A stretch of DNA of 64,000 nucleotides from Heterotrichella gracilis. Lineage: Eukaryota; Sar; Xanthophyceae; Tribonematales; Xanthonemataceae. The position numbers were made by a program, and so were the translations under genes. The stretch is from NCBI GenBank assembly GCA_032358255.1, contig JAULBX010013319.1, positions 35,893-99,892 of the forward strand, read 5' to 3'. The notes beneath the pieces were generated by a model. It was not told where the DNA came from. It worked only from the letters and a program-made list of their open reading frames with translations, and did not search any database. Positions 1 to 64,000 of the stretch are shown here, piece by piece (the stretch's first letter is position 1; each line of letters opens with the position of its first letter).

Positions 1-127
1 CATTCTATACCACACCACCCCCTCGGCAGAGTCTGCTCCCTACCCAACAATAGCAAGCTGTGCCAAACCAAAACCCTAGATAGGTCACAGCCTCGCAAAT
101 TTCAGCGTCCAAATCCATGCAGGCTGC

Positions 128-2948
128 TCACAGCAGGGCTGCGATGTCCTTCTCAATATCTGCTGGTGTGGTGGTGGATGGGTACCTACGTGCGGAGAAG
201 GGTTTAGGTTTTAGGATTTAGGGTTTCATGTGGTGGTGGGTGGGCACCTACAGCCGGCTAGGTATCATCACTCTCATTGCAGTGACAGGAAACTGCAGCG
301 GGCAGTAACATTCTGACTACATTGCCGCATAAAGTGCAAGGCAGTTTAGGGTTTACTCCTGCGCTGCTGCCAAAGCTGCAACATGCCCGGCTGCTCTGCT
401 TTTGCCGATACGCCTCTTGACCACATTGCCTGCTTTGTCCACCTGGAATTTGCTTTCACGGCTTGTGACTTAGGGTTTATGATTTAGGGTTTACATATTA
501 GGGTTTATGACTTAGGGTTTAGGGTTTTGGTTCCTCACCAGATACGCCTCTTGACCACATTGCCTCCCTTGTCCACCAGGAACTTGTTTCATAGCTTGTG
601 ACTAGGGTTTATGACTTAGGGTTTAGGGTTTTGGTTNNNNNNNNNNNNNNNNNNNNNNNNNNNNNNNNNNNNNNNNNNNNNNNNNNNNNNNNNNNNNNNN
701 NNNNNNNNNNNNNNNNNNNNNNNNNNNNNNNNNNNNTATGACTTAGGGTTTAGGGTTTTGGTTCCTCACCTCTTGACCACGTTGCCTTCCTTGTCCACCA
801 GGAACTTGTTTCACAGCTTGTGCCTTAGGATTTATGACTTAGGGTTTAAGGTTTTGGTTCCTCACCTCTTGACCACATTGCCTTCCTTGTCAACCAGGAA
901 CTTTGTGAAGTTCCACTTGATGTCGTTGGTCAGCAGGCCACCCGCCTTGTTCTTAAGGTACTCAAACACAGGCTCGGCTGCAGAAAAGAAAGGGATTGTT
1001 TTTGTAAAACAGGTAGAAAAATGGAAGTACGCAGCATGGACGTCAGGTAGTCAAATAGAGGCTAAGAAAAAATGGTTTCTGCTGCATACGAGCCACTCAT
1101 GCCAACACCCTAAACCCTAACCTTCAGGTACTCAGACACAGGCTCAGCTACAAACAGATCCATGTGCACATAAGCAAACCAACATGCATATACGAGGTCA
1201 CATGCAAGCTCCTGCAAGCTGTGGGGTATGCACCGTTGCTGTCCCACCACATGCACGCCTTGACCACAGACTTCCTTCAATTATGTACGTGCCCAATGCA
1301 TATTGCCTTGACCACAGACTTCCTTCAGTTATGCGCGTGACCATTGCATAGTGCCTTGCAAGAATCGGCAGCCTGATACCAGCAAGTTCATGGCTCTACC
1401 AGGTGTACAAGGGTCAATCCACCGCCCGTGCAAGCTGCATGATTTACCACTGCCACGTGTATTCACATATAGCCTTTGCTGGCGATGGCTGACCCTAAAC
1501 CCCAAAACCCTAGAATAAAACTCACCGCTGCCGCCGTTCACGTCCAGCTTTGCCGTCAGTGGAAACTTGGCCCCCAGCTTCTGTGCAATCCAAACCTTGA
1601 CCCTAAAACATCTCCTGTGCACAGGCCTTGACGTCCCTGTTGCTCCCAGCCTCCTTTTGTGCAAAGAAGTTGGTGTCCCTAACAGCAAACCCTAGAACCC
1701 TACTCCTGAAACCCTGTGCTTACCGCTGCCGCCATTCACGTCCAGCTTTGCTGTCAGTGGGAACGTGGCCCCCATCTTCTGCGCAAAGGACTTGATGTCC
1801 CTGTTGCTGCCTGGCTCCTGGGCGCCAAACTGGTTGCAGGGCGCACCCAGCACCACCAGGCCCTTGTTGTTGTAGGTGTTGTACAACTGAGCCAGGCCCT
1901 GTGGGATTCAAACCACGCGATTACAAGATGAGAGGATAGCGAGAAAGAGGCAAGCCAGATGGGCGCGGCGTGCCCAGGATGCTACGGTAGAGTGTGCGGC
2001 AATAGCTGGGGTCAGGTGTATGCCAGGGCGCACCAAGCACTACTAGGTCCTTGTTGTTGTAGGTGTTGTACATTTGAGCCAGACCCTGTGGAGCCAAGCC
2101 AAGCGATTATAAGGATAACGTTGTAAGAATAACAATAACAATGACTTTCATATTGAAGAGCACCCGCCGCGGCAACATGCCGGGGCCAAATGCTTAAACA
2201 GCCCTGGGATGACTTGGTAGAATGATTCCAGATGGGCGCAGCATGCCCAGGATACTAGGAACTGTATAGGGTGCGGCAGTGGCTGGGATCAGGCGGGTGT
2301 CAGGGTGCACCCAGCAGCACCAGCCCCTTGCTGTTCTAGGTGTTGTGCAACTGAGCCTGAGCCTGTTGAGTGATGTCTACGTTCCTCCTGGTTTAAGCCA
2401 CTTCTTCACCGAGTAAGGGTGCACTTAGGTACTTAGGCTCCCCAGTACTGCGTGCACAGTGTGGGTGGTCCTTGGGTGCAGGAGGGTGGGTTGGGCCCTC
2501 CAACTAGCAAGGCCTGCTTTGAGACCTCAAGGCTATGCACTGAGCCTCAAACTGTGTAAAGAACCCATAGCAACCCCTTACTGACCTTGTACTGAGGCGT
2601 GAAGCCACACTGCGAGGCCACGTTCACCACCAGGACCACCTTGTTCTTGAACTGCTCAGTCTTGAGCGTCTTGCCATCGATGTCCTTGACAGCAAAGTCG
2701 TAGAACGTCTTGGGCTCCGAGCTTGCGTTGGCAGTCCCGAAGAAAGCCATCGTCTGCACGTGGCTCCTGCTGAGCTTAGCTGGAGTAGCAGACTTGGTGA
2801 AGGCAAGGCGTGGTGACGCCCTGCCGATGGCAGCTACCGAGCAGAGTGACCTCGCTGGCGAGGCTACCGAGCTGCCCACGTGGCTCCTGGTGCTGCACAA
2901 GCGGGTTGAGGCCACAACTGTGCCCAGGCGGACGTTCACGGTCTGCAT
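128..2948 (-). CDS. GPX: Glutathione peroxidase-like (thioredoxin-type) peroxidase, probably plastid-targeted
   Basis: Four exons on the minus strand: 2948-2586, 1898-1724, 977-866, 185-128. All junctions are GT..AG and phase-consistent, giving 235 aa. The enzyme reduces H2O2 and lipid hydroperoxides. Visible family motifs are NVASQCGFT with the peroxidatic Cys (codon TGT, so not selenocysteine), the second Cys in GAPCNQFG, the Gln/Glu of AQEPGS and the Trp of KWNFTKF. Those two Cys fit the plant and algal class that uses thioredoxin rather than glutathione; this is family knowledge, not shown here. About 80 residues rich in Ser, Arg and Ala precede the domain and resemble a chloroplast transit peptide. 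I chose the Met at 2948. An in-frame upstream Met at 3017 would add 23 residues. The third intron contains the assembly gap and several decayed copies of exon 3; the second holds copies of exon 2. Confidence 0.93.
403..812 (-). repeat. Ghost copies of GPX exon 3 (donor end) with TTTAGGG tracts
   Basis: Three partial copies of the 3' end of GPX exon 3 with its donor region (source 866-977) occur near 410-452, 540-580 and 764-806. Each encodes decayed versions of the segment ending in NVVKR. They are separated by tracts reading ttagggtttatgacttagggtttagggttttgg. The gap at 637-736 falls within the array. Confidence 0.85.
637..736. other. Assembly gap (100 N)
   Basis: Exactly 100 undetermined bases, the usual placeholder for a gap of unknown size. 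It lies inside an array of TTTAGGG-like tracts and copies of GPX exon 3, which probably caused the break in assembly. The true distance across it is unknown. Confidence 0.98.
1526..1690 (-). repeat. Ghost copy of GPX exon 2
   Basis: This decayed copy of exon 2 (source 1724-1898) shares the [14 protein letters not shown] end and its donor, then diverges, with many substitutions in the middle and no intact open frame. It lies just 3' of the true exon in the sense of transcription. Confidence 0.85.
2015..2365 (-). repeat. Two ghost copies of GPX exon 2 (acceptor end)
   Basis: Near 2025-2092 and 2297-2362 are copies of the 5' part of exon 2 with its acceptor, encoding degraded [19 protein letters not shown]. 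The second copy carries an in-frame stop. The flanks also share the phrase about 'gatgggcgcggcatgcccaggat', so the duplicated unit included intron sequence. Confidence 0.8.
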
Positions 2949-3769: not shown

Positions 3770-6700
3770 ATGTTTCGGATACTTATCGCCACAGACAACC
3801 ACCTGGTAAGCCCCAAAACGCTGTAACGTCGTGCCCCATCAAAATGGGGTCTCGACGGATGCCTTTTTGGCCCACAATCTTGACCACCGTTGCGCACCCA
3901 AACCCGCAGGGCGTGTGGGAAAGGGACGAGATCCGAAAGGACGACTCCTTCGTCACGTTCGAGGAGGTGTTCAACCTTGCCAGGGCACAGGACGTGGACT
4001 TCGTACTCCTGGGCGGGGACCTGTTCCATGACAATAAGCCATCGCGCTCCACCCTGGTCCGAACGGTGGACATCCTCACCAAGTACTGCCTTGGGGATCG
4101 TCCCGTGCCTTTCAAGATACTCAGCGATCAAGCCCAGAACTTTGTTAGCGGGTGGGATCTGCGCGCCACATCTTGTACTATATGCATGCATTGTGCGCCC
4201 CACTGTCCCACCCGTTACAAGTTTGTCATCAGTATCCAGCGCAATTGTTTTGTTAACCAAATGCAAGGCTGAGACTGTATAGCCCCTTCTGTGCTGGCAC
4301 ACTGAGTGCCACTACCCAATCACACAACTCTATGAAGGGCGGTTCAAACCAACACTGTCCGCGGATTTTGCGAACGAAGGGAGTGCCATTGGCCGATATT
4401 GGTGGATGCGTCCCCTTGGCGCATACATGCACCCATAGGTGTATCTTTTCACTTCGGACCGAATGAGTCCAAAGGGTGTTAGGGTTTAGGGTTTTAGGGT
4501 TGCGTGGGCTCCATCCTTGCTCATCGCACACCTCCCCATTTCAGGCGCGTCAACTTTGAGAACCCCAACTACAACATCGGCCTCCCCGTGTTCACCATCC
4601 ACGGGAACCACGATGACCCAGCGGGATCCCACAACCTGTCAGCAGTCGACATACTGTCCACATGCAACCTGCTCAATTACTTTGGCAAAGCGGTGAGGTT
4701 CGAAACCCTACCAAGTTCCCCTTTGTCGCCACCTGCTGCTTGGCTGCTGTGCCATTGCGATACCATATGTGATGACAACTGGCGTCTCCTGATTGGTGTA
4801 AAATACAACAAAAACAGCCGTACATGTAACGTGAAAATCCCTCGCAACCGCCTCACAACCTGTCAGCAGTCACCATTCTGTCCACCTGCAACCTGCTCAA
4901 TTACTTCGGCAAAGCGGTGCGATTCCACCACTTCATCGCCTTTCTTTGATCACTAGCGCTTAATGCCTTCCCTTGCTTCATGCCCTATCGCTTGCCTCCC
5001 ATCGATCCCGCCAATGATCACTACTTCTTAAGTGCCTTACGTGTGTGTGGCGTGCAGGCGCTGGAAGGGTCTGGCATCGGCAAAGTCAGGATAAGCCCTG
5101 TGCTCCTACAAAAGGTATTCTGCAGCCATCCATGAATGTGCACTATCCCCAAATGCATGCCAAGGGTTAGCACTATCCAGTTCATGCCACTCAGGGATGC
5201 TGCCCCTGTCCCAGCGTGTCGTCCATGGTCGTTCTGAGCCGCGACGGGTACATTATTATCCTATTGTAATATATTATGCCACCCACTGCCCGCGCCACAA
5301 TTTTGCATTGCCAGCTACCCATGCATGGGACTTAATGCACCACACTCATACCCACACCACCCAATGACCCATCGGCAGGCAAAACATTGGCATCCTGACT
5401 CCCAGGACCAAGCATGTGACCATCCCAGGGATCTCTTGTCTTTTCTTAATCTGGCACACCTAATGTGGTCATCCCAGGGATACACCAAGATCTGCCTGTA
5501 TGGACTTGGCAACATCAGGGATGAGCGACTGGCGCGCATGTTTCAAACGCCAGGCTGCGTGGAATGGTGAGTCAAACCCTAAACCCTTGCCCAGGGCCGT
5601 ATAAACCCAGGTAACAGCACGTATGCCCTGGATGAGTACACAAAAAGAGGGGGGAAATTAAAAGAGGGGACAAGGTTTGCCTGGAAGACAGCCCCGACCA
5701 TTTGATCAATTCATTATCACTGCAGGGTGCCTTCAAGAACAGCTCCTGACTACTAAATATCTCAATCTAATCAATTGATTGATTATTGTTTACCACTGCA
5801 GGGTACACCCCAAGAACCACTCCGATTGCTAACTAATTGATCAAATCATTACCTTCGCAGGGTGCGCCCCGAGAACAGCTCCGATTTCCCGCTGGACGAG
5901 TGGTTCAACATCTTTGTCCTCCACCAGAACCGGGTGGCGCACCAGCAGAACGCCAAGAACTGCATCCGGGAGAGCTACCTGGCCAAGTTCCTTGACTTTG
6001 TGGTGTGGGGCCACGAGCACGAGTGCCTGGCGGATCCAGTGGTGGGTGGTATGGTGTGGGTGTGGGTGTGGATGTGGCTGTGGCTGTGGCTGTGGGGGGG
6101 TTACAGGGGCATGTGCACGAGTGCCTGGCGGATCCAGTGGTGGGTGGTGGTTGTGGTGGTGGTTGTGGTGGCGTGGTGGTGGTGGGGGGGGATGCAGGGG
6201 CATGTGCCTGTCAAACTGTGGGTGTGGTTGGGGGTGGGGGTGGGGATGTGGTTGGGGGTGGGGTGGAGATCGACATTGTGATGTAAAACCATGCCATGAC
6301 AATTTGGCATGGCCTTATGATCGAAGTGCCTGGCGGGTGTGGGGTTGGGGTTGCAATGGTTACAGTTACGGTTTGCATATGTGTCACTTCCTCCACAGGA
6401 GTGCTCCGTGGTCGACCCCAGCTGCCCCTTCTCCATCATCCAGCCTGGGTGTAGTGTAGCCACAGCCCTGTCTGAGGGCGAGGCCAAGCGCAAGAATTTG
6501 GTGATGCTAGAAGTAATTAGGAATATTAGCCCCCACACTACTCTAACCCCAGCAAGAAAAATGCACAAAAGGCCAACTAGAAATCCCTCTTTTTTACTAT
6601 TATGCAGGAGTGCTCCGACCCCAGCTGCCCCTTCTCCATCATCCAGCCCGGCTCAAGCGTGGCCACCGCCCTGTCGGAGGGCGAGGCCAAGCGCAAAAAC

Positions 6701-9700
6701 GTGGTGATGCTGGAGGTGATGGGCGACAAGTGGCGCTGCGTGACGCTGCCGCTGACCAGCGTGCGGCCCTTTGAGTATGACAGCGTGGCGCTGGGGGAGC
6801 AGCATGAGCTGCAGCCGGAGGATGCAGAGGTAAGCGGGGGAGTAGTGTGCAGTGGGTAGGAATTTTACTGTGGTAATTTGAAGTGTCCTTGTTGGGTGTG
6901 TTTTTGAGGCAATTGGGCGATGGATTGTGTTTGTGGGGCGGCTTTTGGGATCAGGGTTTAGTTGGGGTGTTTCGGGGTGGTTTTGAGGTGCGGGTGGGAT
7001 GCATTTTGGCATGTAACGCTGCATTTCACCCCACATCGGCATATGTCAGAAATAATATGTGCTTCCCCAGGGGGTCACCGATTTCCTGGAGACCAAGGTG
7101 GAAGGCATGATTAGGCGAGCGGGGGGGTCAAACCCGGGAGCCCCCCCTGGACAAGCGCCCATGCTGCCACTCATCAGGCTCAAAGTGGACTACACAGGCG
7201 AGTCACAACCCTAATCCTAAACCCTAAATTCATACCTGTTGCCGTTCACCAGGCTAGTTTTGAGTTCAAACCCTAAAGGGTTTGATTGTCCAGGACTGGG
7301 ATCTGGGGAGTAGAGCCCTGGGGATGGGTTTGGCGTTTCTGCCCTTGCAAATTTTCTTCCCTTTCCTCCCTTAGAACCCAGCAACCAAATTGCTTCAAAA
7401 CTTATAATTTGATACGTATCATTCCTATCCCCCCTCCCAGGCTTCTCCACCATTAATGCGCAGCGATTTGGGCAGCGCTTTGTGGGCAAGGTGGCTAACC
7501 CCACTGACATACTGCTGTGGCAGAAGGCAGCGGCGCGCAAAGCCAAGGTGGGGGTGCAGGGTTTAGGGTTTGGGTGTGGGTTGGGGGTTTAGGGATTAGG
7601 GTTTGCGGAAACGGTGGCCAACCCCACTGACATTGCTGTGGCAGAAGGCAGCGGGCGCGCAAGGCCAAGGTGCGTATGATTTTGGGTTGTGTTTTTCATG
7701 CTTCCAGAAATTGGGCACCTGCACCTGAGTAGGAACCCTGCATTACACGCCTTGTTATTTTCCCTTCCATTCCCTGTTCTGTTTTTCATTGTTGACCGAG
7801 GCCCCCAGGGGGATGTTCCCGGGGAGGCTGATCAGCTGATTGAAGCTTTGGACAAATTCAAGATTGAGGACTTCATCAACAAGCATTTGCAACCAATGTT
7901 TTTTAAATATCCACCCGTGCACATCCATGTGCCGTTTGCTCCCAAGTTTAAACACCTCCCATTTTTTTCCTTCATTTTTTCCGTCTTTTTTGCAGCCCGA
8001 GGCCCCCATGGGGACGGTCCCCGGGGAGCTGATCCGCCCCGAAGCGCTGGATGAGTCCAAGATTGAGGACCTGATCGCGCAGCACCTGCACCAGAACCTG
8101 GAGATCCTTCCAGAAAACGAGCTGGGTACCGCGCTGCATAACTTTGTGGAGAAGGACGACAAGCAAGCCCTGGCCACATGCGTGCAAGGTACGGTCCCAT
8201 TCACTCAAAGCTCGAATACTTTTTGTGTATCCAAAATGAAAGGACTTGATAGCACATCACCTGCACGGGAATGTGAAACGTTGCCAATAGATGAGCTGGG
8301 CACCGCGCTGCATCATGTTATGAAGAAGGACGACAAGCAAGCACTGGCCACATGAGTGCAAGGTGAAGGCTGACAGTAACCAAGATGGAACCGCAACTTC
8401 ATGAAACAAAATTGATAATGAATGAGTATGCAATCGAGGACTTGATGCGCAACATCTGCACCAGAATTAGGGATTCTGCTGATGAGTCCATGTTACAGGT
8501 ATTCTGAAGGGAAGCGCACAACCTAACACCCTACACGCCAAACCCTAAAACCAGGCACTGCCCTAACAGGAATCCTGAATGCAACTTGACATCTTCAATA
8601 AATTTTTGTCCCCCTTGTATACAGGCATTCTGAAGGAGACCCAGGAGGCTGCTGGAGCTGACGAGCGCACCCAGGCCATTGAGCCAATGGGCTACACATA
8701 ATTGTTATGTGGCTTTTGGCTTTTTAACCTTTTTGGGTTCAGTGAGATGCAAGAGGCAGCATGTATATGCAACTTGTTGTCCCCATTTTATACAGGCATC
8801 CTGAAGGAAACTCAGGAGGCCGCTGGAGCTGACGAGCGCACCCAGGTCATTGAGCGGGAGGACGATGTGGGCACAGTGTTGAGTTCGCACCTGCAACAGA
8901 GGAAGGCGCAGCAGGTGGGTGGGGGCTGGCTGTGGTGGTGGCGTGGTGGTGGTGGTGGTGGTAGTGGGGATGGTGGTGGAGTGGGTGTTGGGTGGGGGGG
9001 GTACGCTACGCCAGCGTAACATAAATGAAGGGAGGAGATCAGAAGAATACACGACGTTGGCACTGTTCTCAACTCACACCTGCAGCAGAGGGCGGCGCAG
9101 CAGGTGAGTGGTGGTGGTGGTGGTGGTGGTGATGGTGGTGGTTGTGGGTGGTGGCGGCGTTGATGGTGGTGGTGGTGGTGGTGGTGGTGGTGGTGGGTGG
9201 TGGCTCGGAGGCGATGGAGTGGGTGTTGGTGCCGGGACGATACCTTAGTCCAACGGAAATGGTAGAAAATGTGATGTGGGGACTGTGCTTAGGTCGCACC
9301 TGCTGCAGAGGTGGAGGGTGCAGCAGGTGGGTGGCGGTGGCGATGGGGGTGATGACAGGTGGTGGTGTAGGGGGAGCCTGCAGGGGGAGAAATTGCTCGC
9401 TCTACCACCGCGCCTATCCAAGGACAGGCTGCGCAGTTACTCATGTGTCTCATTCAACATTTCTGTAGGATGTCCAGGCCGCCATGCGGCGCGCTCAAGA
9501 CATCAATCTGTCTGAGGTGGCGCCCTCTGACATGGCAGGGGGGGAGAGCATGGAGATGGATGGGGAGGGACCATCCACCTCGCACACGCCGGCAGCTGGT
9601 GCGGTTGTGGTGGTGGTGGTGGTGGGTTGTGGGGGTGGATGATGGGGAGGGACCATCCATATGCACACACTTGCAGGTACGGTGGATTGTAGTGGTGATG

Positions 9701-11110: not shown

Positions 11111-13108
11111 TGAGGGAATTTTGGGGTACCATTGCGGTGCCTGCCAAGGGGGGATGGGGCATATCGATTATAGGGGCGATGCTTGGGAGTGCAATGAGGC
11201 AAACACCGCGCCTCTAATCGATGTACGAGCGGGTTTGGTATTGGTGCTTTGACATCTGGCGGCGCTGCTTGTGCGCAGGTTTCTCGTTTTGGTACACATG
11301 CGCGTTGTGGTGCGAGCGGAGTGTGGAATACTATCCAGTAGTGATTTTTTATGCTGAAAACAAGAAGGATTAGGTGGAAATGGCAACAGCCTGGACCTCA
11401 GTGCTGCACCATGCAAATGCACCATACAGCATGCGGCATGTAAATCTGTAGTGCTGGTGGCGGGAATGGTGCGCCTTTTCCGCACCCGCTCAGCAGTGCC
11501 AGTCAAGTGGTCTACCTGTTCAATACCCTTTCGTAGGGTTTTGCGGCAGATGCTGCCAACATTTGCCTGGTGAGCACACTTCGGGTGTGTTGTAAAGAGT
11601 GGCCTGGTCGGGGTTCTGATCCATCGCCATGGCGTGTACCTGGCTGAGGTCTCGACAGACAGCACAATGCACGTTGCGTCTGGCCAATCGTAAATTTTAA
11701 ATATATCCAAGGTAATAAAAATCAAAATAAAGGTCTAGAAAGCATGAACTAGGTGGTTCACATGCATGCATGCCAAAGCATAAACGCCAAAAAGTCGGAG
11801 GAAACAGAACTGTGAAAGCCAGCCACGGTCCACAGTATTGCTGATGCATAGTAACTTGCGTTGTTTGCAATAGTTTTCGTGCTCTAGTCCACCCAGGTTG
11901 TGCCCCATACTCGCAACACTCACGCACCAGCTGGTCTGCTTTGTTTAACCACAGTGGCTAACCTGTAGTACGTACAACCTAGCCTCTTCTCACCCGGTAT
12001 CATACAGCCATAGAAGGATCCACATCCGAAGTTTTGGGTCACATATAACGGTGGTGGCTCAGTATTTTGCCCACTAATTAGGTGCATTGGGTCGCCACAG
12101 TCGATTACCATGCAGTGCACAACCGTTTGCCTGGCCAAGGCCACACCCATGCGCACAACCCACGTTCGGCAACACAAGGAAACCAGCGCAACTGTCTCAG
12201 CCCCTCCTACGAGGCTGGCCTATGGGGCAGCTACAGCTCGCCCGTGGCCAAGCTTGACCAGAGGGGTTGCACAGAGGGCTCAGCGCATGCCTAGGCACCT
12301 ATGCAGGGCAAGCACCGAGCCAGACGAGGTATGGCGTAATTAATTTAGTGGTTGGCGTATTCAAGGCCTGTTCTGAATTAAATCGCGACCTTCAGGCAAA
12401 GAAAAACACCATAGCTATCCATTTTGAGAGGTGCATGTAGTGCATGCATGGTGGGAGGTGTTTCTCGGTCCTGCCAATGGGGCATTAATTGCTGCCATAT
12501 GGCTGCTGCCATGCATGACGTGACTGTATTTCTGAAGCTTTTTTTCCTTTTCCTTACCTGCTTGCCTAGATTAGAACCAAGCTACCATTGGCCTCTTGCC
12601 CCATTGCCATATGCATGCAAGGACCTGGCCATGGGCATGTTCAATTATGAAGCCCAGAACCTGCAAATCGATGACACTTGTTTTGGTGGCACTTATTAAG
12701 CTCCATGTAAGATGTGTGAAACCATATCATGTGGTTTTCATGGTTCTCCCCATAACGTTGTGAGAATGGTGCATCCACATCCTTGGGAGCTTCTACCTTA
12801 ACCCTAAACCCTACACCTTAAACCCTGAACCGGGTTTCGAGGTCGTCCGGCAAGGCAATTCACCTCATGTTACCCCTCCCCTCACTGTCAGTTTATTCGC
12901 TACTCCTCTAGAACTACTAGAACGGACAAGCACTCCAACCGCTAACTTTACTCCCCTTATTACTTACGTATTCGCATCGTGTGTTGTGCAGGGGCAGGCC
13001 CAGCCTGGCAAGGCCCTTTGCGAGGTCACCCAAGGACTGGCTAGACTGGCTGAGAAGGAAAAGTTTTTTTTCTGGTCTCAAGCAGCGGGTTGCTGCTTGT
13101 CTCCACAG
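11111..13108. other. Intergenic region without a recognised gene
   Basis: About 2 kb between MRE11 and the first supported exon of the next gene. It contains one copy of a dispersed repeat (about 11570-11960) and a small CCCTAAA-like tract near 12797-12830. Open frames here (for example 11168-11725 minus, 12424-12699 plus) show no recognisable domains. The unassigned 5' exon(s) of the gene that follows could lie in 12990-13060, which follows a good acceptor at 12990. Confidence 0.5.
11570..11960. repeat. Dispersed repeat A, copy 1
   Basis: About 390 bases alignable by eye to 16795-17190. Shared blocks include 'ttgtaaagagt', 'ctcgacaga', 'ggtggttcacatgcatgcat', 'gtgaagccagccacggt', 'gttgtttgcaat' and 'gtccacccaggttgtgtccc'. 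The copies have diverged with indels. No terminal inverted repeats or transposase are visible, so the class of element is unknown. Confidence 0.75.
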
Positions 13109-16040
13109 CAGCAAAAGTGGTTTTCCCAGACATTTGGGAGGACTTTGGGCTGGCTGAGCTGGGCCTGCAGGTATAGCCAAGCAAAAAGTACATAGATGAT
13201 GAATTAGAGTTTTTAGTTGACCTCATACAAGGATTTACAGGAAAGTGATTTGTCAAGAGGGCGCCCCAGCGAGCCCGAGCTAAAGTTACTATAGTCTAGT
13301 CACATAGCCTGCTGAAATCCTTTGCAATCGTCTTTAGGTATTGATTGTGCATGTCCAGAGTTACCTTTGCCGTTGCCATGGTAGGGCTGGTCATAATAAC
13401 GTCTATAACGTCACGTAATTATGCATACCCAGGCGGGTAAGGCATTATAATAATTAGGAGCACATTTACACTATTTACACTTGACGCTTATGTACCTAGA
13501 TGCAAGATTGTGCACCCAGCCCTTCCCCGCCGCGCACCCGGATATCAGGACTTTCCACCTAAAAAAACATACGTTGGTTTTGATCATGGGAGGCTGTAAA
13601 GATTTGCAAGGATGTTTGGTCTTGCAGGTTCTTACCCTTTTCGTGCTCATCCTCCTTGTGCTCGATGTTACGTGGATCGTCAATGACTTGATGTCAGAGC
13701 CCCAGCTGCCAGAAATTAAGACAGAGGATGATGCTGATGACATAGGGACAGTGTTTGTAAGTCGTTCGGACCCTGGTCCCTACATGGATATCTAGTTGTG
13801 TGCACGCTGGGGCCAGCACATGGCGGTTGTATTTTCCTGTCTCTAGCACTGCCCTGCAGCTGAGTTTAAGGTCCACTTACAAATGAACGCAGTAATTTGT
13901 AAGAAATCGAATCTAGTCATTTTTGCTAATCTTGCACATGTATGGCTACGCCGCCAAGCGGTCCTGCCACTGTCTACGCCATTTGTTGATCCTGCACAAC
14001 CCAAGAGCTCTTCCAGGTCACACCAGGCCATGTAGGCCATGTAGGGCATGTAAGCCATGTTGTATTAGGTTCACTTGCCCCCCTTGCCCCTTGGTCCCTA
14101 CCTAGTAGCGCACGCTGCGTTTTGCATGGACTCCAATTTTTTGTTGGGAAACAACAAAAAGCTAAGCTAATAGAACACTCGCATACATTGTATTGGGTAA
14201 CAATACCAGCTTATGCTTCCTTGGTGTTTATGGACCCTAAACCCAGCAGCTGAGCCATCTGCTGCTCCTGCGCTGCCTGAGAAACTTTTTAAGAGGATCT
14301 GTGGCGGTCAGACGATGTGATGTCAATTCATACTATTCATACTTGATTTGGGTGTACTGTGTGCAGGTGGATGTGCTCCAAAGGGGCGTGGTCATCGACA
14401 CCGTGAGCTTGGACCTGGTGGACATGGTGCAATAAAAAATGATTTAATACATTATCTGAAAACATGCTCATTCCCATTTGAGTCAGAAAATTTAATGATT
14501 TAAATTATTATTTGTTTCTAAAAGCAATATTGTATTTTAAACTTTCCAATCTACATGGAACCATGATCTTTACAAGTACTGTATTTGACATAATTTTACA
14601 GTTGAAGAGGAAGCATAAAAGCTTTGTATGTTTCAGGTGGATGTGCTCCGAAGGGGTGTGGTCATCGACACCGTGGGCTTGGACCTGGTGGACTTGGTGG
14701 AAGTCATTGGGAACAAGTGGAGTGGCCTGTTCCAGCACGTGCTGCATCAGCTGGAGCCTGACCTGCCTGAGCTGGCACCAGAAGACGTCCTGAGGCTGGA
14801 ACTGGAGTATGCCAATGGCACCATCGAGGCGCTGGACAAGGTCAAAGACATGCAGGTAGGGTAGGTAGGTAGGTAGTGCAGGTCCCCTGACTGATTGTCC
14901 ATATAGGCTATGCGCAATTGCAATGCCGCCTCTCCCACGCCTTTAGGATTTGAAGGTACCTGTCAGTACGTAGTGACACCTGCCAGATCTGAGAGATTTC
15001 TGCTGAATTGATTAACAATTCGATCTTGCTATATATATTTATATTTACATTCATATGTACATTTAATTTTACTATTTACTACTTCTATTCATATTTACAT
15101 TTAATACTTACAATAAATGCTTTTTTTTGTTTCGGGTGGACAGTGCGCTGCGCGAAGTCAGCAGCATCCGGGTGACGGTGGCGGACGGGTATGTGTGCCG
15201 CACACCTAGCACACCCCAGGTCATTGTGGAGGAGGGCCCAAGCCTGGAGCTGGTGTACCGCAATGGTCGCACCATCAGCATGCGCAAGCTCCGGCACAAG
15301 TACACGGATAGGGTGCTGCGGGGGGTCGAAGCCATCAATGTCATTCTGACATCAGCGCGGTATGTGAACCCTAACTCCACACCCTAGAACCTACGCGGTA
15401 CGTGTACCTCATCAATGATGGCAAGATGCGTAGGGTTTAAAAACAATAGATCCTGCACGTTTGGACCGCAGAAAACTCTTAAGTTGCAAACCCTTAAACA
15501 TACACCTATGGTAATATATAACCATTGTTGAGGGCCGCACTGTCACCATGCGCAAGCTGCGGCACAAGTTTATGAGCAGGGTGCTGCGGGGGGTCCAAAC
15601 AATGTGGGTCATGCTGCCAGCAACACGGTATGTGTGGCGTATGCCGCAAGGCGTCTAGGGTTTAGGGCCCTGGCATAAAGTCTAGAACCTAAACCCTGTA
15701 TCCTGAGCATAAATAGCATGAATCCACAGGGAGTGTACAGGGTACAGGGTTCATGGCGTGACCCCACAAGGTTAGCCATAAACCCTTGTTTAGGGTTGTG
15801 CAGGGCGTGATGCAATCGTGGCGCGCAACTTCTTCAGGATCAAGCCAATTCTTGTGCCTCATGCTGTGGCGGTGTCTTGCATTGTTTTAATTGGTTCAGA
15901 TTGCAAACAGCCAATTACAGCATGCATATGTTTGGTGGCTGATTCCTATTCCAAACGCACATGGTGACTGACGTCCACTTGTTGTGTGACACAGGGATAG
16001 CGCGGGAAATGGACATGGACATGGAGGGAATGGAGCCTGA
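13109..16040 (+). CDS. Unrecognised membrane protein (5' end unresolved)
   Basis: Supported exons are 13109-13170, 13628-13756, 14637-14860, 15144-15359 and 15995-16040; phases agree if the third exon uses the second of two tandem GTAGG donors (14861). The protein reads KVVFPDIWEDFGLAELGLQ, then one strongly hydrophobic helix (LTLFVLILLVLDVTWIV), an acidic loop (EIKTEDDADDIG), and about 150 soluble residues with charged, amphipathic and beta-like segments. It ends in a Gly/His/Asn-rich tail (AGNGHGHGGNGA). One membrane helix with a larger soluble C-terminal part is what I see; I do not recognise the family. The start codon is not located. Introns hold decayed copies of exons 3 and 4, the same habit as in the conserved genes, which supports its being a real gene. 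Confidence 0.6.
14366..14432 (+). repeat. Ghost copy of the third exon of the membrane-protein gene
   Basis: Near-identical to the first about 65 bases of exon 14637-14860 (gtgcag|GTGGATGTGCTCC onward), including an acceptor, then diverging into AT-rich sequence. It is 271 bases upstream in the same orientation and remains open, so it could act as a cryptic exon. Confidence 0.88.
15525..15632 (+). repeat. Ghost copy of the fourth exon of the membrane-protein gene
   Basis: Copy of the end of exon 15144-15359 (CGCAAGCTGCGGCACAAGT through GGGGGGTC) with donor GTATGTG, carrying several substitutions. Another short echo of the exon end with its donor lies at 15392-15412 next to a CCCTA tract. Confidence 0.85.
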
Positions 16041-48930: not shown

Positions 48931-53400
<4,470 letters not shown>

Positions 53401-54623: not shown

Positions 54624-57600
54624 ATGTTGCTGCTGAACAAGTTTGTCAAGGGCTGGAAAAGCGGAAGCGGAACCAACAGGTGAGTTGGTAGCCGCGAGTC
54701 GCCTGCATATGGGCTGGTATCTACGCTGCACCCAAACGCCCACAATCGTGGCTACCCATCCCACCCTCACGCCAACGAAGCAGTACGTACTTGGGTTGTC
54801 AGCAAACGTGCTTTTTTATCTGTTTGCGCACGGTGTTGTTGCCCTGGCGTTGATAGTGTACTGTTTTTGAGATCCCCTGCCCTTGACTGCCCAGTGACAA
54901 GTACAGATCAATTGCAATCGGTCAACAGCCTTTTACTTCACCAGGCTGAGTCGCCCTGGTTGCGCCTGGATCATGGAAACGTATTCGTTCCGTTTTAACG
55001 CAAGGGGTCCCTGCATAGACCCAGAGTTTTAGACACCATTGCACGGCATTTGTGCCTAATAATCGTGACCCTGGCGTGGCAGGGAAGGAGTGAAGGGACC
55101 CCCTTTAAGCACGGCTACCAGTGCAGAGCAGCCCGTACACGTGAAGGCTCCTACTGAGAGCGTTATACGGTCTTCCTCTTGTGGGGCCCCTGCTTTGGAG
55201 GACAGCTCGTACATTCTTCCTGGCCGAGTGCCGATCAACGACAGCTCACACAACAGCCTGACAGAAGACACGCCTGGTGTCACAGAGCGGGTGTGGACAA
55301 AGCCCAACCTCGGAAGTAAGTGGATGTGGGGACGTTGGCGCCGTTGTTGGCCGGTTTTTGTCGCCATCGGCGATCACGCGGTTTGCTATGCACCTCTCGG
55401 AAGGATGCCTGAAAGCAATGTCTGCTGGGTGATAAGGCAACAGGGCGGCCTCTTTGGCTGTACAGTCCGCAATGTCAGTCCCCGGCATGCTTCGATTAGT
55501 TTTCCTGCCACGTCGTTTGTTGCCACTCACGTTGGTAGCTTCCCGGCCTCGTATGCAACATCGCACTTGCGTTCTCATCACTTCCCAGCTGCCATGTACT
55601 TGTCCTGGCTGTCCCCAACTTTGGGGCCCAAGCCTGCACAGCTGTCCCTTTTCACCCCACTCAACAGCCCACCAGCACTCACGCTTGCACCAGCACCACC
55701 CACACCGCCCACCAGCACAGTACCCACCCCCACCACCCCCCTCTCCGCAGGCAGCGGCCCACACAACAGGTCATGGCAGCAACAACACCACCAAACCAGC
55801 CCCAGTGGCAGCCCCCCCACAGCCCCAGCCAGCGCCCCCCCAGTCCCTGCAGCCAGCACCCCCACTGTCCCACCCAGCCCCCCAGCGGTCCCTGCCAGGC
55901 CCCCTCGGTTCCTACCCGAAGTGCCGGACGAGCCCCCACTGGGGGTGGTGTACACCCCCCGCAACGTGCCCCTGGATGACGCCACCGTGCACTTTAGCGC
56001 CACCTACTCCTTCGACAACTGGCCCTCCACCACCCTCCACGCTGCCCCCAAGCAGCAGGAGGAGCAGCCAGATGGCCGCACGAGCTCGGGGAATTTCAAG
56101 TGGTGCTCGCTCAAGACTGGGGAGGTCACTGCCCTGCAGCAGGCAGCCATAGAAAAGGGGCTGAAGTACACCACCACCTGTCGGCTGGGCGCGGGGGGCT
56201 ATGCCACGGTCTACCTGGGCAAGCACGCAGACTCCAAGGAGCAGGTGGGTTTAGGGTTTCAGGAATAAGTGTGAGGGTTCCATGTCCCTAATATTACACC
56301 CTGCAGTGGCGCAGTATCCCTGGGGAAGCACGCAGACACCACGGAGCGGGCGGGTTTAGGGTTTTAGGGTTTTGTAACTAGTACACCCTGCGGTGGTGCA
56401 GTCTACGTTGGAAAGCACGCGGTGCTAAGGTGCGCGTGGATGGTGGCCTGGGTTGGCGCAGGTGTATCAGTGTACCTGGGGAAGCATGCAGAGACGCCAA
56501 AAGGGAGGTGGACGGGTTGGGTTGCAGGTGTAAATATTTCACCAGAGCGCCAACATGAGATGCACTTGTCCGGTGCCTGTCCCTGCGGCGCAGCTCCATT
56601 CAAATTGTAGGATGGACCTGGGAAAGCATGCGTGCACTAAGGCGCACGCGTGTGGGGTTGACACCGAGAAAACTAAACCCTAACTGTAGCCCAATGTCCC
56701 TCTCCCCAGGTGGCTGTGAAGTTCGTTGAGGGTTGACACCGAGAAGCACTAATATTGAACCCTGACCCTGACCGCAAAACCCTAACCCTAGCCAATGCCC
56801 TCCTGTCCCCAGGTGGCTGTGAAGTTCATTGAGGTCGACACCGAGAAGCACTAGTTCGTGAACTCTAAAACCCTAAAGGCATCCCCCTCCCTGTCCCCAG
56901 GTGGCTGTGAAGTTCATTGAGGTCGACACCGAGAAGCACCTCAAGTACGTGGTGCGGGAGGTGCTCAACCTGCGGCTGTGCACGGGGCACCCAAACATCA
57001 TCGGCTTCAAGGACGTGTTCCTGAAGGACAACCAGGTAAACCTTAAACCTAAAACCCTAAATCCTGGCTTCAAGGACGTGTTCCTCAAAGACAACCAGGT
57101 AAACAATAAACCCTGCGCCATGGACCTGTAAAGCCTACTTCTTCCACTTTCCTTTCAATTCCATTCAAACCAAGCGCTTTATACTCACCACTGCACTATA
57201 TGTTCAGGGCATCACCCACCCACCCAGTTGCTGTGAATCTACCAGGGCCTCAGCGCATACTGCACCCATGTCAGTTTCCCCATACTGACGTAGTTCACCC
57301 ATGTCAGTTTTCCCCATTTCCTGGGTTCTTCCCATGCGGGTCATAAGTACTCCCCCAGGTTACCAATGTGGTGGACTATGTGCGCGCATCGGCAGCCTGG
57401 CCAGCATTTGATATCACGTTCCTTTTCTCAAACAAAAAAAACACTGGGATTAAGGGAGTAGGGGATTTACAACGGCCATGCGCCATAGCCATCCCTGGGG
57501 CTCCTCCTGCCCATGTAGGTAGAAGACTGAAACTCGTTTTTTTGGTCCCCCCAGGTTGCCATTGTTATGGACTACGCGCGCAGCGGCACCCTGGCTAGCT

Positions 57601-59599
57601 TTGTCAAGTCGCAGGGGCGGCTGTCTGAGAAGAGCGCGCGGTATCTGTTCCAACAGCTGGTGGCTGCGGTGGACTTCCTGGAGAGGAAGGGGGTGGCAAA
57701 CAGGTGGGGGGTGGAGGGGATGTGTGACAGGGAAACAGGGGGGGAGTGGGTAGGGTTTGGTGGGAAACTGGGGTGGGCTTCCCCCACAAAATGCGGCCTG
57801 TTTTTGGAGAAGAGTGTGATACCTCTTCCAGCAGCTGGTGGCTGGAGGGGACTTCTTGGTGAGGAAGGGGGTGGTAAACAGGTGGGGGATGTGACGAGGA
57901 TGTGTAACAAGGGGGGATTGGGTAGTGCTTGGACGGATATGGCAAATTTCTGCGCAAAAATGGACCTTTTGGGGACACAGCGCCAGGTTTTTGTTCCAGC
58001 AGCTGGTGGCAGCGGTGGGCTACCTGGACAGGAAGGGGGTGGCAAACAGGTGGGGTGGGTGGGGGATGTAAAAGGGATGTGTGACAGGGGGGAGAGGGGG
58101 GGATTGGGTGGAGTTTTGGCGCTAAAGCCCCACTAAACCCTGCTTCGTCTCCCGCAGGGACATCAAGCTTGAGAACCTGCTGCTGGACGGGTCCGAGGAC
58201 AACTGGCCCGTGCTGCGCGTGTGCGACTTCGGCATGGCCAAAAACATCGTCATCGACTCTGCGCCCCAGAGCCTGGTGGGGACCCCGCTCTACATCGCTC
58301 CAGAGGTGCTGAGCGAGTCCACCTATGACGGACATAAGGTGGATGTGTGGTCCTGCGGCGTGGTGCTCTACTTCATGCTGCATGCAAGGTGAGACCAAAC
58401 CCTAAACCCTAGGCAGAATGAGACCAAACCCCAATTATAAACCCTAACTCTAGGCGAGGTGGGCTGGGTGTCGGTGCATGGGAGGTGCAAAACCCTGGTA
58501 GAGGGTTTAGGTAAGACCCCAGAGGTGCTGAGCGAGTCCACCTATGACAGGCACAAGGTGGATGTGTGGTCCTGCGGCGTGGTGCTCTACTTCATGCTGC
58601 ACGCAAGGTGAGGAACAAGCCCTAAATGCTGCACCCTAGGCAAGATGGGCTGGGTCGTGGGGCAAAACCCTGGTGTGGGGTTTCAGTCAGACCAGAGGTG
58701 CTCCAGCGAGTTCTTGTATGACGGGCGTCTGGTCCTGCAGAGGGGGCTTTAGCTTGTGCTACGCAAAATGAAGCCAACCCTGCCGGTGCTGAAAACTATG
58801 AAGTCTTATCCTTTCCAGAGACATCACAGTTGAATTTGTTTGCTCGTTTTTTGCAGGCACCCCTTCAAGCAGGGCCGGGAGTTTGAGGTTGCCCAGAACC
58901 CGCAGATGCAGCTGCAGGCCTACTTCAAGTGCCTGATGACCAACACCTACCCCATGGCGTCAAACATCTCAGAGGGCTGCCAGTGAGTGCTAAGTCAGCT
59001 GGTTGGCTAGGTTTAGGAGGGGGATTTTTTGTGGAATGAATAAGAATGTCATGAGAATTTCAAAATGCATTGCTACATGTGTGGACGTCTGCCACAATAT
59101 GTAGTGCCACTTAAGCGGGTGGCTGACCTGACCTGCATGTTGTGATTGGTTACCTGAATATGCCAACAATTGCATCGGACCATGCTCCAGCTGGATTCCA
59201 AGAAGCGATGCACCCTCAACCCTAAATCAAACCCTACATGTGCACTCAAAACCCTGATCCCAAACCCTAAACCCAAAGCCCAAAACCCTGCATGCGCACT
59301 CAAACCCTAAAACCCTAATCCCGCCCCTATGCAGGGACCTCATTCGCACCATGCTCCAGCTGGACCCCAAGAAGCGGTGCACCATCGAGGAGGTCATCCA
59401 GCACCCCTGGTACAGCACCGACTCCTACATCCCTAACGTGGCGGCCGCCACCCACCAGCTCAACGAGATGCTGATGGACTGCACGCCGCCCCCCGGGCTC
59501 ATGACAGCGGAGGAGGTGCAAGCCACCATCCAGGCCTCTTTCACGCGGGCCCAGGGCCTGCAGGAGCAGAAGCAGCAGCAGCGGCAGCAGGTCCGGTGA
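54624..59599 (+). CDS. SnRK2/CAMK-type serine/threonine protein kinase with Pro-rich N-terminal extension
   Basis: Exons: 54624-54679, 55083-56244, 56901-57035, 57555-57703, 58158-58388, 58857-58982, 59335-59599, all in phase, 707 aa. The kinase domain (about residues 380-650) has the glycine loop [17 protein letters not shown] with the ATP-binding Lys, [13 protein letters not shown] (His of HRD replaced by Asn), CDFGMAK and [11 protein letters not shown], then [14 protein letters not shown] and EEVIQHPWY. Order and phrasing resemble plant SnRK2/SnRK kinases involved in stress signalling. The segment before the domain is about 375 residues, including a Pro/Thr/Ala-rich linker of roughly 100, probably disordered. 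The tail is Gln-rich ([11 protein letters not shown]). A strong GTAAGT at 55314 inside the long second exon suggests an optional intron removing part of the extension, though the frame stays open. I place the start at the Met of [16 protein letters not shown] because its exon joins in phase. Confidence 0.88.
56290..56520 (+). repeat. Ghosts of the kinase glycine-loop exon end
   Basis: Copies of 'gccacggtctacctgggcaagcacgcagactccaaggagcaggtggg' (source 56200-56250) at about 56308-56355, 56393-56425 and 56460-56500, separated by a TTTAGGGTTTTAGGG tract at 56354-56372. Confidence 0.85.
56690..56860 (+). repeat. Two ghosts of the kinase Lys-exon (acceptor end)
   Basis: Copies of 'ccccaggtggctgtgaagttcattgaggtcgacaccgagaagcac' (source 56896-56940) at 56704-56747 (with a two-base change and broken frame) and 56809-56852 (near exact, then ctagttcg). 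CCCTAA tracts precede each. The acceptor is therefore present three times. Confidence 0.92.
57062..57105 (+). repeat. Ghost of the kinase Lys-exon (donor end)
   Basis: 'ggcttcaaggacgtgttcctcaaagacaaccaggtaaac' copies 57003-57041 with two changes. Between original and copy is aaaccctaaatcc. Confidence 0.93.
57355..57410 (+). repeat. Ghost of kinase exon 4 (acceptor end)
   Basis: 'cccccaggttaccaatgtggtggactatgtgcgcgcatcggcagcctggcc' resembles 57550-57597 (gttgccattgttatggactacgcgcgcagcggcaccctggct). Confidence 0.82.
57800..58060 (+). repeat. Two ghosts of kinase exon 4 (donor end)
   Basis: Copies of the region 'gagaagagcgcgcggtatctgttccaacagctggtggctgcggtggacttcctggagaggaagggggtggcaaacaggtgggg' (57627-57708) at 57809-57888 and 57984-58056. 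Period is about 175 bases, and the following 'gatgtgtgacaggg..gggattggg' intron sequence is duplicated as well. Confidence 0.93.
58505..58790 (+). repeat. Two copies of the kinase APE/DVWS exon end
   Basis: 58516-58611 is almost identical to 58299-58391 (CCAGAGGTGCTGAGCGAGTCC onward) including the donor, and its frame is open. A third, badly decayed copy lies at 58691-58772. The flanking text 'aggcgaggtgggctgggtgtcgg' and 'taggcaagatgggctgggtcgtgg' is shared too, so the unit was about 200 bases. Confidence 0.93.
59172..59215 (+). repeat. Ghost of the last kinase exon (acceptor side)
   Basis: 'catcggaccatgctccagctggattccaagaagcgatgcacc' copies 59343-59384, followed by ctcaaccctaaatcaaaccctac. 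Confidence 0.9.
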
Positions 59600-62047: not shown

Positions 62048-64000
62048 ATGGCTGTCCGTCAATACCCTACCAGGACCTCAACTCTCTCTTCAGCGCCACC
62101 CAAGGGCCACCGCACCAGCCGAAGCCAGCTGATAGTGACGTCCACGGCAGAGGTGGTCGCCACCCGCGCCACCCAAGCGGATACACCCACCCCCGTGGTC
62201 AAGGGGGTGAAGGGGATCTCAAACAACGTGACCGAGGTCATTGGCAACACCCCCCTGGTGTACTTGAAGAAGGTCACCGAGGGGTGCGGGGCCACCATCG
62301 CCGCCAAGCTGGAGGGCATGGAGCCCTGCAGGAGTGTGAAGGACAGGATCGGGCTGAACATGATAGCGGACGCGGAGCGCAAGGGCCTCATCCGACCAGG
62401 TAGGGTGCCCTTTCTACCCCAAACCCTAAGTCCTAAACCCTAAAACCCTTTGGAGGTTGTAGCTGGCCGCCCGCAAGGGCCTCACCCGACCAGGTGGGAA
62501 CCTCTTTTACCCCAAACCCTAAACCCTAAAGGCTAAACCCTAAACTCGTTGGATGGCTGGCGCCGAGCGCAAGGGCCTCATCCGACCAGGTGGGCAACAA
62601 ACCCTACACAAACCCTACACAAACCCTACACACTGTGCAGGAAGTACACATACACGGCAGAATCGGGCTCAACATGATAGCGGACGCGGAGCGCCAGGTG
62701 GGGCCGCCCTTCACACCCTAATCCCTAAACCCTATCTTGAGGTGTAAACATGAGAAGAACATATAACCCTGCACTGCGATTTGGCTGGTACAAACATCCT
62801 CCCATGGGGCTACCTCGCCCCACCCTTAGCCACAAGTCCAGGGCGCACGCAATAGCTGATTTAGAGTGCAATTTAGCTATTGCATGCGCCCTGGACTTGT
62901 GGCTAAGGGTCTCATCGACCAGGTGGTGGCCTCCTGCGCACATGCACACCCTAAAACCCTAACCAAACAGCTCAAATACCCTGCAGGTGTGACCACGCTG
63001 GATGAGCCCACCAGTGGCAACACTGACATTGGCCTGGCCCTTGTGGCAGGGGCACAAGGCTACAAGCTCATCCTTGAAACCCTAAACCCCTAAGCCCACG
63101 GTATGACCCACTGTCCCTACAGTGGCGAAGCCAATCCGGCGTCAGCCCTAAACCCTAACTAAACACCCTAAATCCTTGCAGGTGTGACCACACTGGTTGA
63201 GCCCACCAGCGGCAACACAGGCATTGGCCTGGCCTTTGTGGCAGCTGCTTAGGGTTATCAGCTCATCCTCAAAACCTAAAACCCTAAACCTCGTGCATGA
63301 CCAGACCGGCCTGGCGGAGCTGCTTGGCGTCAACCCTCAACCCTAACAGTACATTGTAAACCCTGAACCATACCCTCCTGCAGGTGTGACCACGCTTGTT
63401 GAGCCACCAGCGGCAACACAGGCATCGGTTTGGCCTTTGTGGCAGCTGCCCAGGGGTACCAGCTCATCCCTAAAACCCTAAAACCGCAAACCCATGCTAT
63501 GACCCACTGTCCCCACAGTGGCGAAGCCAATCCGGCGTCAGCCCTAAACCCTAACAAAATACCCTAAACACCCTGCAGGTGTGACTACCTTGGTTGAGCC
63601 CACCAGCGGTAACACAGGCATTGGCCTGGCCTTTGTGGCAGCTGCTCAGGGGTACCAGCTCATCTTAACCATGCCTGCATCCATGTCGCTGGAGCGGAGG
63701 GTACTGCTGCAGGTATGAGGGGGGGAAATGGGCCAGGGTATAGGCTTATGGTTTTTAAAGTTGCCTCCGGAGCGGGGGGTGTTGCTACAGGCAGAGGGAC
63801 GTAGGGTCTTGTTTTTTTCTTGGGGGGGGTATTTAGTTACATACTTCCAGCAATACAGCCAGACCTGCGGTCAGTCTTGCACCTGCAGCGCCAAGCCAGT
63901 TTAGGCATATCTTTCATTGTTAGCATTTAGTTAGTTAGTTAGTTAGTTACATGCATTCCAGCAAAATAGCCAGATTAGCAGTCAGTCTTGCACATGCGGC
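62048..64000 (+). CDS. Cysteine synthase (O-acetylserine (thiol)lyase), plastid type; incomplete at the window edge
   Basis: Exons seen: 62048-62399 and 63579-63712, phase-consistent; the rest lies beyond 64000. The enzyme is PLP-dependent and makes cysteine from O-acetylserine and sulfide. After about 50 residues resembling a plastid transit peptide ([18 protein letters not shown]) come [18 protein letters not shown], the PLP-Lys motif RSVKDRIG, and in the second exon [21 protein letters not shown] with [11 protein letters not shown], all family hallmarks. About 160 of the expected 370-400 residues are present. Between the two exons lie three dead versions of the second exon and several of the first exon's end; I chose the copy at 63579 because only it has an intact frame and continues to TMPASMS. 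Confidence 0.92.
62460..62705 (+). repeat. Ghosts of cysteine synthase exon 1 (donor end)
   Basis: Copies of 'gagcgcaagggcctcatccgaccaggt' (source 62375-62402) at 62471-62497 and 62565-62592, and of 'atcgggctgaacatgatagcggacgcggagcgc' at 62662-62695. A CCCTAAACCCTAAA-type tract follows each. Confidence 0.92.
62823..62909. repeat. Near-perfect inverted repeat (33-34 base arms) in a cysteine synthase intron
   Basis: Left arm from 62824 'ccttagccacaagtccaggg' to 'caatagct', right arm 'agctattgc' to 'cttgtggctaaggg' ending 62908. The arms differ at one base and the loop is about 16 bases. The right arm's last part reads into 'gtctcatcgaccaggtgg', a ghost of exon 1's donor end, so the hairpin formed after or through exon-junction duplication. 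It could be a fold-back element or a small-RNA hairpin. Confidence 0.93.
62987..63470 (+). repeat. Three dead tandem copies of cysteine synthase exon 2
   Basis: Copies with the same ctgcag acceptor start at 62987 ([18 protein letters not shown], then diverging to LETL), 63182 (in-frame TAG in place of the Gln codon) and 63384 (one-base deletion in CCCACC). The intact exon is the fourth, at 63579. Spacing is about 195-202 bases. The intervening text 'ccgcaaacc..gctatgacccactgtccc.acagtggcgaagccaatccggcgtcagccctaaaccctaa' recurs as well. Copies 3 and 4 are closest. Confidence 0.95.
63940..64000 (+). repeat. Dispersed repeat B, copy 2 (cut by the window edge)
   Basis: Identical over 61 bases to 46601-46661; preceded by five tandem 'ttag' units. 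A diverged copy lies just upstream at 63840-63900. Confidence 0.95.

Follow-up and report, generated by a model that had tools for sequence, protein, structure and literature searches.

Why should the introns in one stretch of algal DNA be strewn with partial, decaying copies of the exons beside them? The question is raised by a 64-kb window (the whole stretch of DNA that was analysed, bases 35,893-99,892 of a contig that ends at 99,892, so that window end and contig end coincide) taken from an assembly of 68.5 Mb in 903 contigs. The original prediction held that nearly every gene in this window carries such copies and that a continuing process duplicates exon-intron junctions in place. For comparison we used a 200-kb sample consisting of twenty other 10-kb regions, giving 264 kb together with the window. 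Judging from protein similarity, the window DNA is most likely that of a trebouxiophyte green alga: the GFAT protein joined from its exons has its closest named algal counterpart in [Myrmecia] bisecta (69%), followed by Coccomyxa (66%) and Trebouxia (66%), and M. bisecta likewise provides the closest named algal protein for MRE11 (68%); Myrmecia and Coccomyxa both belong to the Trebouxiophyceae. Rfam and tRNA scans of the window returned no matches, nor did a search of the assembly for Photo_RC (psbA/psbD-type).

Local direct duplications in the window and elsewhere in the assembly

Before filtering, self-BLAST of the window returned 98 direct and 7 inverted repeat pairs. Low-complexity units, telomere-only units and redundancy were taken out (of 126 direct pairs, 41 were discarded as low-complexity or telomere-only and 1 as redundant), and self-palindromes were left out of the inverted count. 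There remained 56 non-redundant local direct pairs in the window and 28 in the sample, and the orientation over both is 84 direct to 1 inverted, a tally in which most pairs come from the window, a hot stretch chosen beforehand. Markov shuffles of 26 ten-kb chunks, which served as control, contained 0 direct pairs and 1 inverted pair. In the window, the duplicated unit (U) has a median length of 72 bp (40-125 bp, 5th-95th percentile), the gap between copies a median of 104 bp and the start-to-start distance a median of 197 bp, with the second copy starting at most 300 bp from the first in 48 of the 56 pairs. The copies are 85% identical at the median, their divergence running from 7 to 28% (5th to 95th percentile). 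The duplication is thus real and far beyond chance, and its dimensions agree with the predicted tally of more than 40 copies, 30-250 bases long and within 100-300 bases of their source.

Many contigs show the process, but unevenly, and the window is one of the hot stretches. Pair density per 10 kb is 8.8 in the window, 3.5 in eight mitochondrial-carrier genes, 1.4 in random DNA and 0 in eight kinase loci with long open frames, none of which contains a pair. The carrier genes, which lie on eight contigs and were taken from a list of exon matches before their sequence was inspected, hold 11 pairs in four of the eight genes; eight of the 11 touch an exon match and 0 are inverted. Nine of the 20 random 10-kb regions are without any pair. 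The expectation that nearly every gene is affected therefore stands for the five genes modelled in the window, all of which carry exon copies, but does not extend to the genome, given the carrier genes, kinase loci and random regions that are free of them. Within the window, 22 pairs fall in the 15.3 kb of modelled genes and 34 in the remaining 48.7 kb, a roughly twofold difference in density, although this remainder also contains genes. Gene density was rejected as the source of the patchiness, as duplication counts do not track coding-like content (rho 0.16, 26 chunks). A mixture of two species in the assembly is unlikely, since L009 and L010 lie on the same contig and yet carry 0 and 11 pairs, respectively. 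Telomere motifs lying outside the pairs rise with duplication count over 52 five-kb bins if the window is counted (rho 0.35, p=0.01), but the correlation vanishes once it is left out (rho 0.04, p=0.81).

Copies of exon edges in introns

Five of the window's genes named in the original prediction were modelled with a small spliced aligner of our own, and Pfam matches supported them: GFAT with 8 exons, MRE11 with 11 that were used, an SRK2-like kinase with 6, and GPX and a cysteine synthase-like gene with 2 each. Homologues served as templates for GFAT and MRE11 (62-69% identity) and for the kinase (41-44%); the MRE11 models diverge between templates past base 8914, and exons up to that base were used. 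Templates for GPX and the cysteine synthase-like gene were joined from the window's own frames, which makes their exon models partly circular; each joined model matches one Pfam family across the join (GPX and PLP-enzyme, respectively). By itself, the stop-to-stop frame of the GPX region matched no Pfam family and no solved structure, whereas the spliced model does match Pfam. The PQ-loop locus also has a Pfam match.

A copy of a flanking exon is present in 15 of the 24 introns of these genes (GFAT 3/7, MRE11 5/10, kinase 5/5, GPX 1/1 and cysteine synthase-like 1/1), and 21 of the 48 exon sides have been copied (Table 1). At the same 1% threshold, the controls gave 0/48 for inverted copies and 0/114 for non-adjacent introns of the same gene, and two of the 21 copies, scoring 27 and 29 where the highest control score was 28, are borderline. 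The two sides are balanced: 10 copies reproduce the end of the upstream exon and 11 the start of the downstream exon. As had been predicted, the copies cross the splice junction, which is included in 19 of 21; fifteen extend at least 7 bases into the intron, and four of the 19 pass the junction by merely 2-3 bases. Were every stretch that overlaps an exon free to be pasted into an intron, 6.5 of 21 would be expected to include the junction, assuming uniform unit placement, and the observed 19 was never met in 200,000 draws. In introns of 294-1,179 bp, ghosts of the upstream exon begin 18-275 bp past the 5' site and ghosts of the downstream exon stop 33-311 bp before the 3' site. Introns with copies have a median length of 454 bp, as compared to 243 bp for those without; longer introns also have more room for copies, so the link may run either way. 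Creation of an intron by duplication was considered as well, and 0 cases were seen among the 24 introns.

Table 1. Local direct duplications in the window: units, spacers and ghost copies
Feature	Position	Strand	Details
MRE11 exon 4545-4692, end with 5' splice site (4630-4701), spacer, intron ghost 4854-4925	4630..4925	+	90% identity; unit of 63 exon and 9 intron bases
Both edges of MRE11 exon 5861-6041: upstream copy of the start at 5702-5746, downstream copy of the end and 5' splice site at 6106-6207	5702..6207	+	upstream copy borderline, score 27
Start of MRE11 exon 6608-6829 (real copy 6605-6720), preceded by spacer and ghost 6396-6517	6396..6720	+	84% identity; 3 intron and 113 exon bases
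MRE11 exon 7441-7547, end, telomere-like spacer of 51 bp, ghost 7602-7672	7479..7672	+	
Both edges of MRE11 exon 8002-8188: upstream copy of the start at 7758-7877, downstream copy of the end at 8241-8364	7758..8364	+	
MRE11 exon 8796-8914, start: ghost 8600-8684, real 8771-8855	8600..8855	+	89% identity
End of GFAT exon 49720-49824, 5' splice site included, with ghost	49800..49982	+	
Start of GFAT exon 52095-52358 plus its 3' splice site (real copy 52056-52165), preceded by spacer 51957-52055 and by ghost 51846-51956 with a frameshifting indel	51846..52165	+	92% identity; spacer single-copy
GPX exon 1722-1898, start copied upstream at 2024-2113 and 2301-2366	1722..2370	-	
Three copies of the start of kinase exon 56901-57035; its end duplicated with telomere-like intron start (57003-57112)	56675..57112	+	
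Upstream copy of the start of kinase exon 57555-57703; more copies of its end downstream	57352..58116	+	
Kinase exon 58158-58388, end with 5' splice site, AAACCCT-bearing spacer partly homologous to flank, ghost	58300..58626	+	94% identity
Cysteine synthase-like intron (1,179 bp in model), repeated copies of upstream exon end and downstream exon start, AAACCCT stretches between	62344..63664	+	
Unit, telomeric spacer, unit; telomeric array absent within 70 bp outside both copies	23043..23236	.	95% identity
Cluster of ten local direct pairs, several spacers with AAACCCT	33054..36444	.	
252-bp unit, 2.3 tandem copies, includes AAACCCTAAACCC	39768..40335	.	
Units 14364-14432 and 14634-14702 flanking a 201-bp AT-rich spacer (25% GC)	14364..14702	.	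spacer single-copy in assembly
Cluster of three pairs, two spacers TTTAGGG-rich, around 100-base assembly gap (637-736)	407..903	.	

Decay of the copies

Divergence between the copies in their exon part is 0.080, 0.063 and 0.169 at first, second and third codon positions, respectively, and 0.145 in their intron part, and 14 of the 21 exon copies have acquired frameshifting indels. This codon-position pattern is what a ghost evolving neutrally (about 7%) would give next to an original that is constrained but free at third positions, with both copies drifting in the intron part. Junction bases differ by 6.1%, as compared to 10.9% for the exon part (p=0.035), and a single base of the 38 in the GT/AG dinucleotides of the ghosts has changed. 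The low junction divergence, close to the neutral ghost rate, probably reflects constraint on the original, and mild conservation of the ghost splice sites may contribute. Because the identities of the exon parts are spread over 0.80-0.98 (divergence of about 2% to 20%), the events are spread over time and do not form a single burst, which upholds the view that the process is a continuing one.

Spacers and their link to telomeric repeats

The sequence between the copies (the spacer, X) allows the 84 pairs to be sorted into 8 that abut, 8 that repeat the whole of U+X, 17 multi-copy arrays, 12 with a mainly telomeric spacer, 2 with a partly telomeric spacer and 37 others; the pair at 57003, classed as telomeric, also resembles a repeated U+X. 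In 51 of the 84 the spacer is unrelated to the flank of the other copy, giving a U-X-U form. The idea that spacers are diverged tandem copies of their flanks was rejected for most of them by an in-register comparison, in which similarity of X to the flanks is about that of the control (5/43 and 5/44 above the control 95th percentile). The 37 non-telomeric spacers are AT-richer than their units (median 45% versus 59% GC; introns have 51%), and each of the four that were searched against the whole assembly is single-copy, with no donor match. Non-local spacer matches within the 264 kb are nearly all telomere-like.

A link to telomeric repeats emerges from the spacers and is a new clue beyond the original prediction. 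Ranked by enrichment in spacers, the top four 7-mers are all rotations of TTTAGGG, the telomere repeat of plant type, whose necklace is 9.5-fold enriched relative to DNA outside the pairs, as compared to 2.4-fold for the best other necklace of the same letters, and 39 of 78 spacers contain at least one telomere heptamer. There are 122 interstitial telomeric stretches in the 264 kb and 1 in the shuffle. When telomeric bases were masked and N treated as neutral, 36 of 116 telomeric stretches proved to be flanked by direct repeats, as compared to 38 of 464 control points at the same loci, 1 of 116 for inverted repeats and 0 of 443 for swapped ones; the difference holds without the window (7/54 stretches versus 6/216 controls, p=0.006). 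The stretch lies at most 10 bp from a copy in 29 of these 36 cases, where random placement in the gap would give 20.8 (p=0.0001). In a set of 25 short spacers, telomere-likeness exceeds that of random stretches (0.21 versus 0.10), with no significant fall as the copies diverge (rho -0.29, p=0.17, n=25). Telomerase would be expected to leave the G-strand beside the left copy and the C-strand beside the right; the counts, 11 to 2 for the G-strand and 11 to 9 for the C-strand (Fisher p=0.13), are at most suggestive of it, and for the register of the break site with the telomere repeat there were 11 edges, too few to weigh. Clean telomeric-spacer cases with no telomeric array within 70 bp outside the copies occur in the window at 23043-23236 and 7479 and elsewhere at L027:6173-6367 and L010:8639-8747. 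Both the telomerase RNA-binding domain and Ku have matches in the assembly.

Origin of the duplications

On balance, we consider it probable that double-strand break repair, with telomeric or other filler, has left these local direct duplications, which are frequent and about 40-130 bp long, as its scars. The process would start from one nick on each strand, giving a staggered double-strand break; filling in both overhangs would leave each end with the unit U. Between these ends a filler X would often be set, made of TTTAGGG telomeric repeats, either added by telomerase or captured, and/or of other DNA, so that X would be new to the site and not native to it, and end joining would then yield the product U-X-U. 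Near an exon, such an event would survive only if U spans the exon-intron junction or sits in the intron. The real copy would stay joined to the exon body, whereas the ghost in the intron would decay neutrally and lengthen the intron. On this account the junction is spanned because a unit lying inside an exon would put X into coding sequence, and only junction-spanning or intronic units would be tolerated. As both kinds of junction are hit alike and the geometry is U-X-U, machinery that recognizes splice sites becomes unnecessary, and the proposal of a process aimed at exon-intron junctions can be dispensed with. In agreement with this, duplicated units in the genome sample are no more coding-like than controls (share of 0.14 versus 0.13, p=0.26). 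An equal density of duplicates far from exons, which would count against the original prediction, is seen in part: in the window outside the five genes the units are somewhat more coding-like than controls (0.15 versus 0.08, p=0.003), and the modelled genes are the denser part of the window. A constrained original may keep its copy detectable for longer, producing an excess near exons. Set against break repair are the 37 of 84 spacers without telomeric sequence, as well as the 33 of 84 pairs that abut, repeat U+X or form multi-copy arrays, which slippage alone could make.

Slippage during replication is the most substantial rival, though unlikely. The polymerase would stall at telomere-like G-rich or other hard sites, slip back and recopy 40-200 bp, the telomeric repeats being there beforehand as the cause. 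Direct orientation fits this scheme, as do the abutting pairs, repeated U+X units and arrays (for example 35387-35765 and 39768-40335), but the 51 spacers that do not recur beside the other copy do not, nor does the control-like register similarity of X to its flanks, and in the four clean cases no telomeric array lies within 70 bp outside the copies. A copy-paste route by template switching, in which a stretch near an intron break is copied into the break and X is native intron, appears improbable. Its non-telomeric spacers would be single-copy, as all four searched are, and their GC content would be near that of introns, as it is. X also has more short direct words in common with the sequence around it (45 10-mers) than with other loci (5.2), but these words come from 12 pairs, are mostly out of register and are probably derived from neighbouring duplications. 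Pasting should, however, have taken exon interiors too, whereas nearly all exon copies include the junction, and template switching is expected to yield inverted copies as well, which are virtually absent here.

The remaining two accounts carry far less weight. That selection keeps the duplicates as functional exons or splice sites, whether alternative or decoy, is very improbable; the near-intact GT/AG bases and the lower divergence at junctions speak for it, but first and second codon positions have diverged about half as much as third positions and intron parts, which is the pattern of a neutral ghost, and frameshifting indels affect two-thirds of the exon copies. An assembly artefact, with haplotypes or reads wrongly placed side by side, is scarcely credible. 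A 100-base gap does lie inside one cluster (637-736), and the window ends where its contig ends, but the copies differ by 7-28% in a codon-position pattern that collapse or expansion errors are unlikely to produce, most spacers are non-recurring, and the pattern appears on many contigs.

Relation to known duplication processes

Several processes resemble the proposed break-repair scars in part. Patch-type duplications in rice are direct and arise from filled-in, joined overhangs of staggered breaks, but are tandem without a spacer. Intron gain by tandem duplication, as in potato RdRp, reportedly produces direct exon duplications beside splice sites; the ghosts here adjoin their own exon, and the intron start is unlike the downstream exon start, a resemblance which that route requires, along with one between intron end and upstream exon end. 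Introner-like elements are said to have a mass effect on introns in one lineage, whereas the four spacers searched here are single-copy and form no repeat family.

Closer parallels come from break repair. Two mammalian studies (PMC2246262; PMC7215372) describe short internal telomeric stretches inserted at double-strand breaks, some with direct duplications read as staggered-break repair and others with random filler beside the telomeric repeats. In rodents 6 of 130 insertions carry such duplications, in primates 4 of 25 and in horse 3 of 66, and the loci are few, with 83 in human. By comparison, direct repeats here enclose 36 of 116 telomeric stretches (8% of control points), the repeat is TTTAGGG, and non-telomeric duplications are common too. 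In Daphnia pulex, direct repeats in introns are described as scars of staggered breaks that lengthened introns, with an exon edge repeated across the insert (PMC4202315); the exon-edge repeats given there are 4-12 bp long and lie in new introns, whereas our units mostly measure 40-125 bp and no intron among the 24 has the look of a new one made by duplication. Direct repeats of 4-30 bp (mean 11.4) at or near splice junctions, attributed to break repair, are treated as marks of intron insertion in another report (PMC11782384), while the present units are long and surround existing introns. CST-Pol alpha, which also serves telomeres, is described as filling in 3' overhangs of staggered breaks to produce small tandem duplications (PMC8355091); these lack a spacer, whereas 51 of 84 here have an unrelated spacer and 8 of 84 abut. 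Break-scar duplication, known from mammals and Daphnia, thus seems to be much commoner in the present genome, which may combine mammalian-type telomeric insertion, Daphnia-type scars and fill-in of the CST-Pol alpha kind. Among the papers listed in a literature search with subscription papers outside its reach, no earlier report of the pattern in algae came up, and the Coccomyxa genome paper does not describe it where its main text treats exons, introns, duplications and repeats.

Implications for intron growth

The ghosts have practical consequences, as their near-intact splice sites and exon-like sequence are liable to mislead gene predictors. The telomeric filler, in turn, ties the duplication process to a testable repair route. 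As a speculative and rather doubtful extension, telomerase-linked repair of staggered breaks could be a main engine of intron growth in this genome, with telomeric patches breaking again and hot patches, through repeated copying of exon edges and their splice sites into introns, doubling splice sites faster than these decay. Introns are usually held to grow by transposons or by single lucky cases. Here, the decaying, neutral-looking copies of exon edges carried by well over half of the modelled introns make many dated steps of intron growth readable in one genome.

Telomere-repeat orientation and inverted matches

Within the cluster of ten local direct pairs at 33054-36444, every exact telomere heptamer in the spacers (the DNA between both copies of a duplicated unit) reads AAACCCT on the + strand, and two degenerate telomeric stretches (35523-35563 and 35716-35740) have the opposite reading. 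The exact spacer heptamers in L010, a sampled region elsewhere in the same assembly, are TTTAGGG throughout. Telomere-repeat orientation looks locally uniform. The inverted count was 29 in one comparison versus 1 in another that excluded self-palindromes, and from these counts the random regions (twenty 10-kb regions sampled elsewhere in the assembly) seem to hold self-inverted stretches as well.

Other repeats and coding matches

Two direct repeat pairs (180-280 bp, 71-74% identity) are separated by 1-5 kb, which exceeds the range of the local duplication class. Among the four copies of a dispersed ~65 bp repeat, one pair is 100% identical, one copy is inverted, and one is carried at the contig end. 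A telomerase RNA-binding domain match, split in two pieces, is located on another contig (G000:C626:23723-24513).

Repeats and coding features in the window
Feature	Position	Strand	Basis
Direct repeat pair	11751-11919 with 16946-17125		Window self-comparison
Direct repeat pair	27834-28104 with 29142-29393		Window self-comparison
Palindromic stretch	41079-41122		Window self-comparison
Palindromic stretch	62822-62910		Window self-comparison
PQ-loop repeat protein exon	26622-27050	-	
Minisatellite, 66 bp	18315-18486		
Minisatellite, 72 bp	20735-20876		
Dispersed ~65 bp repeat	46600-46661, 61920-61985, 63830-63889, 63939-64000
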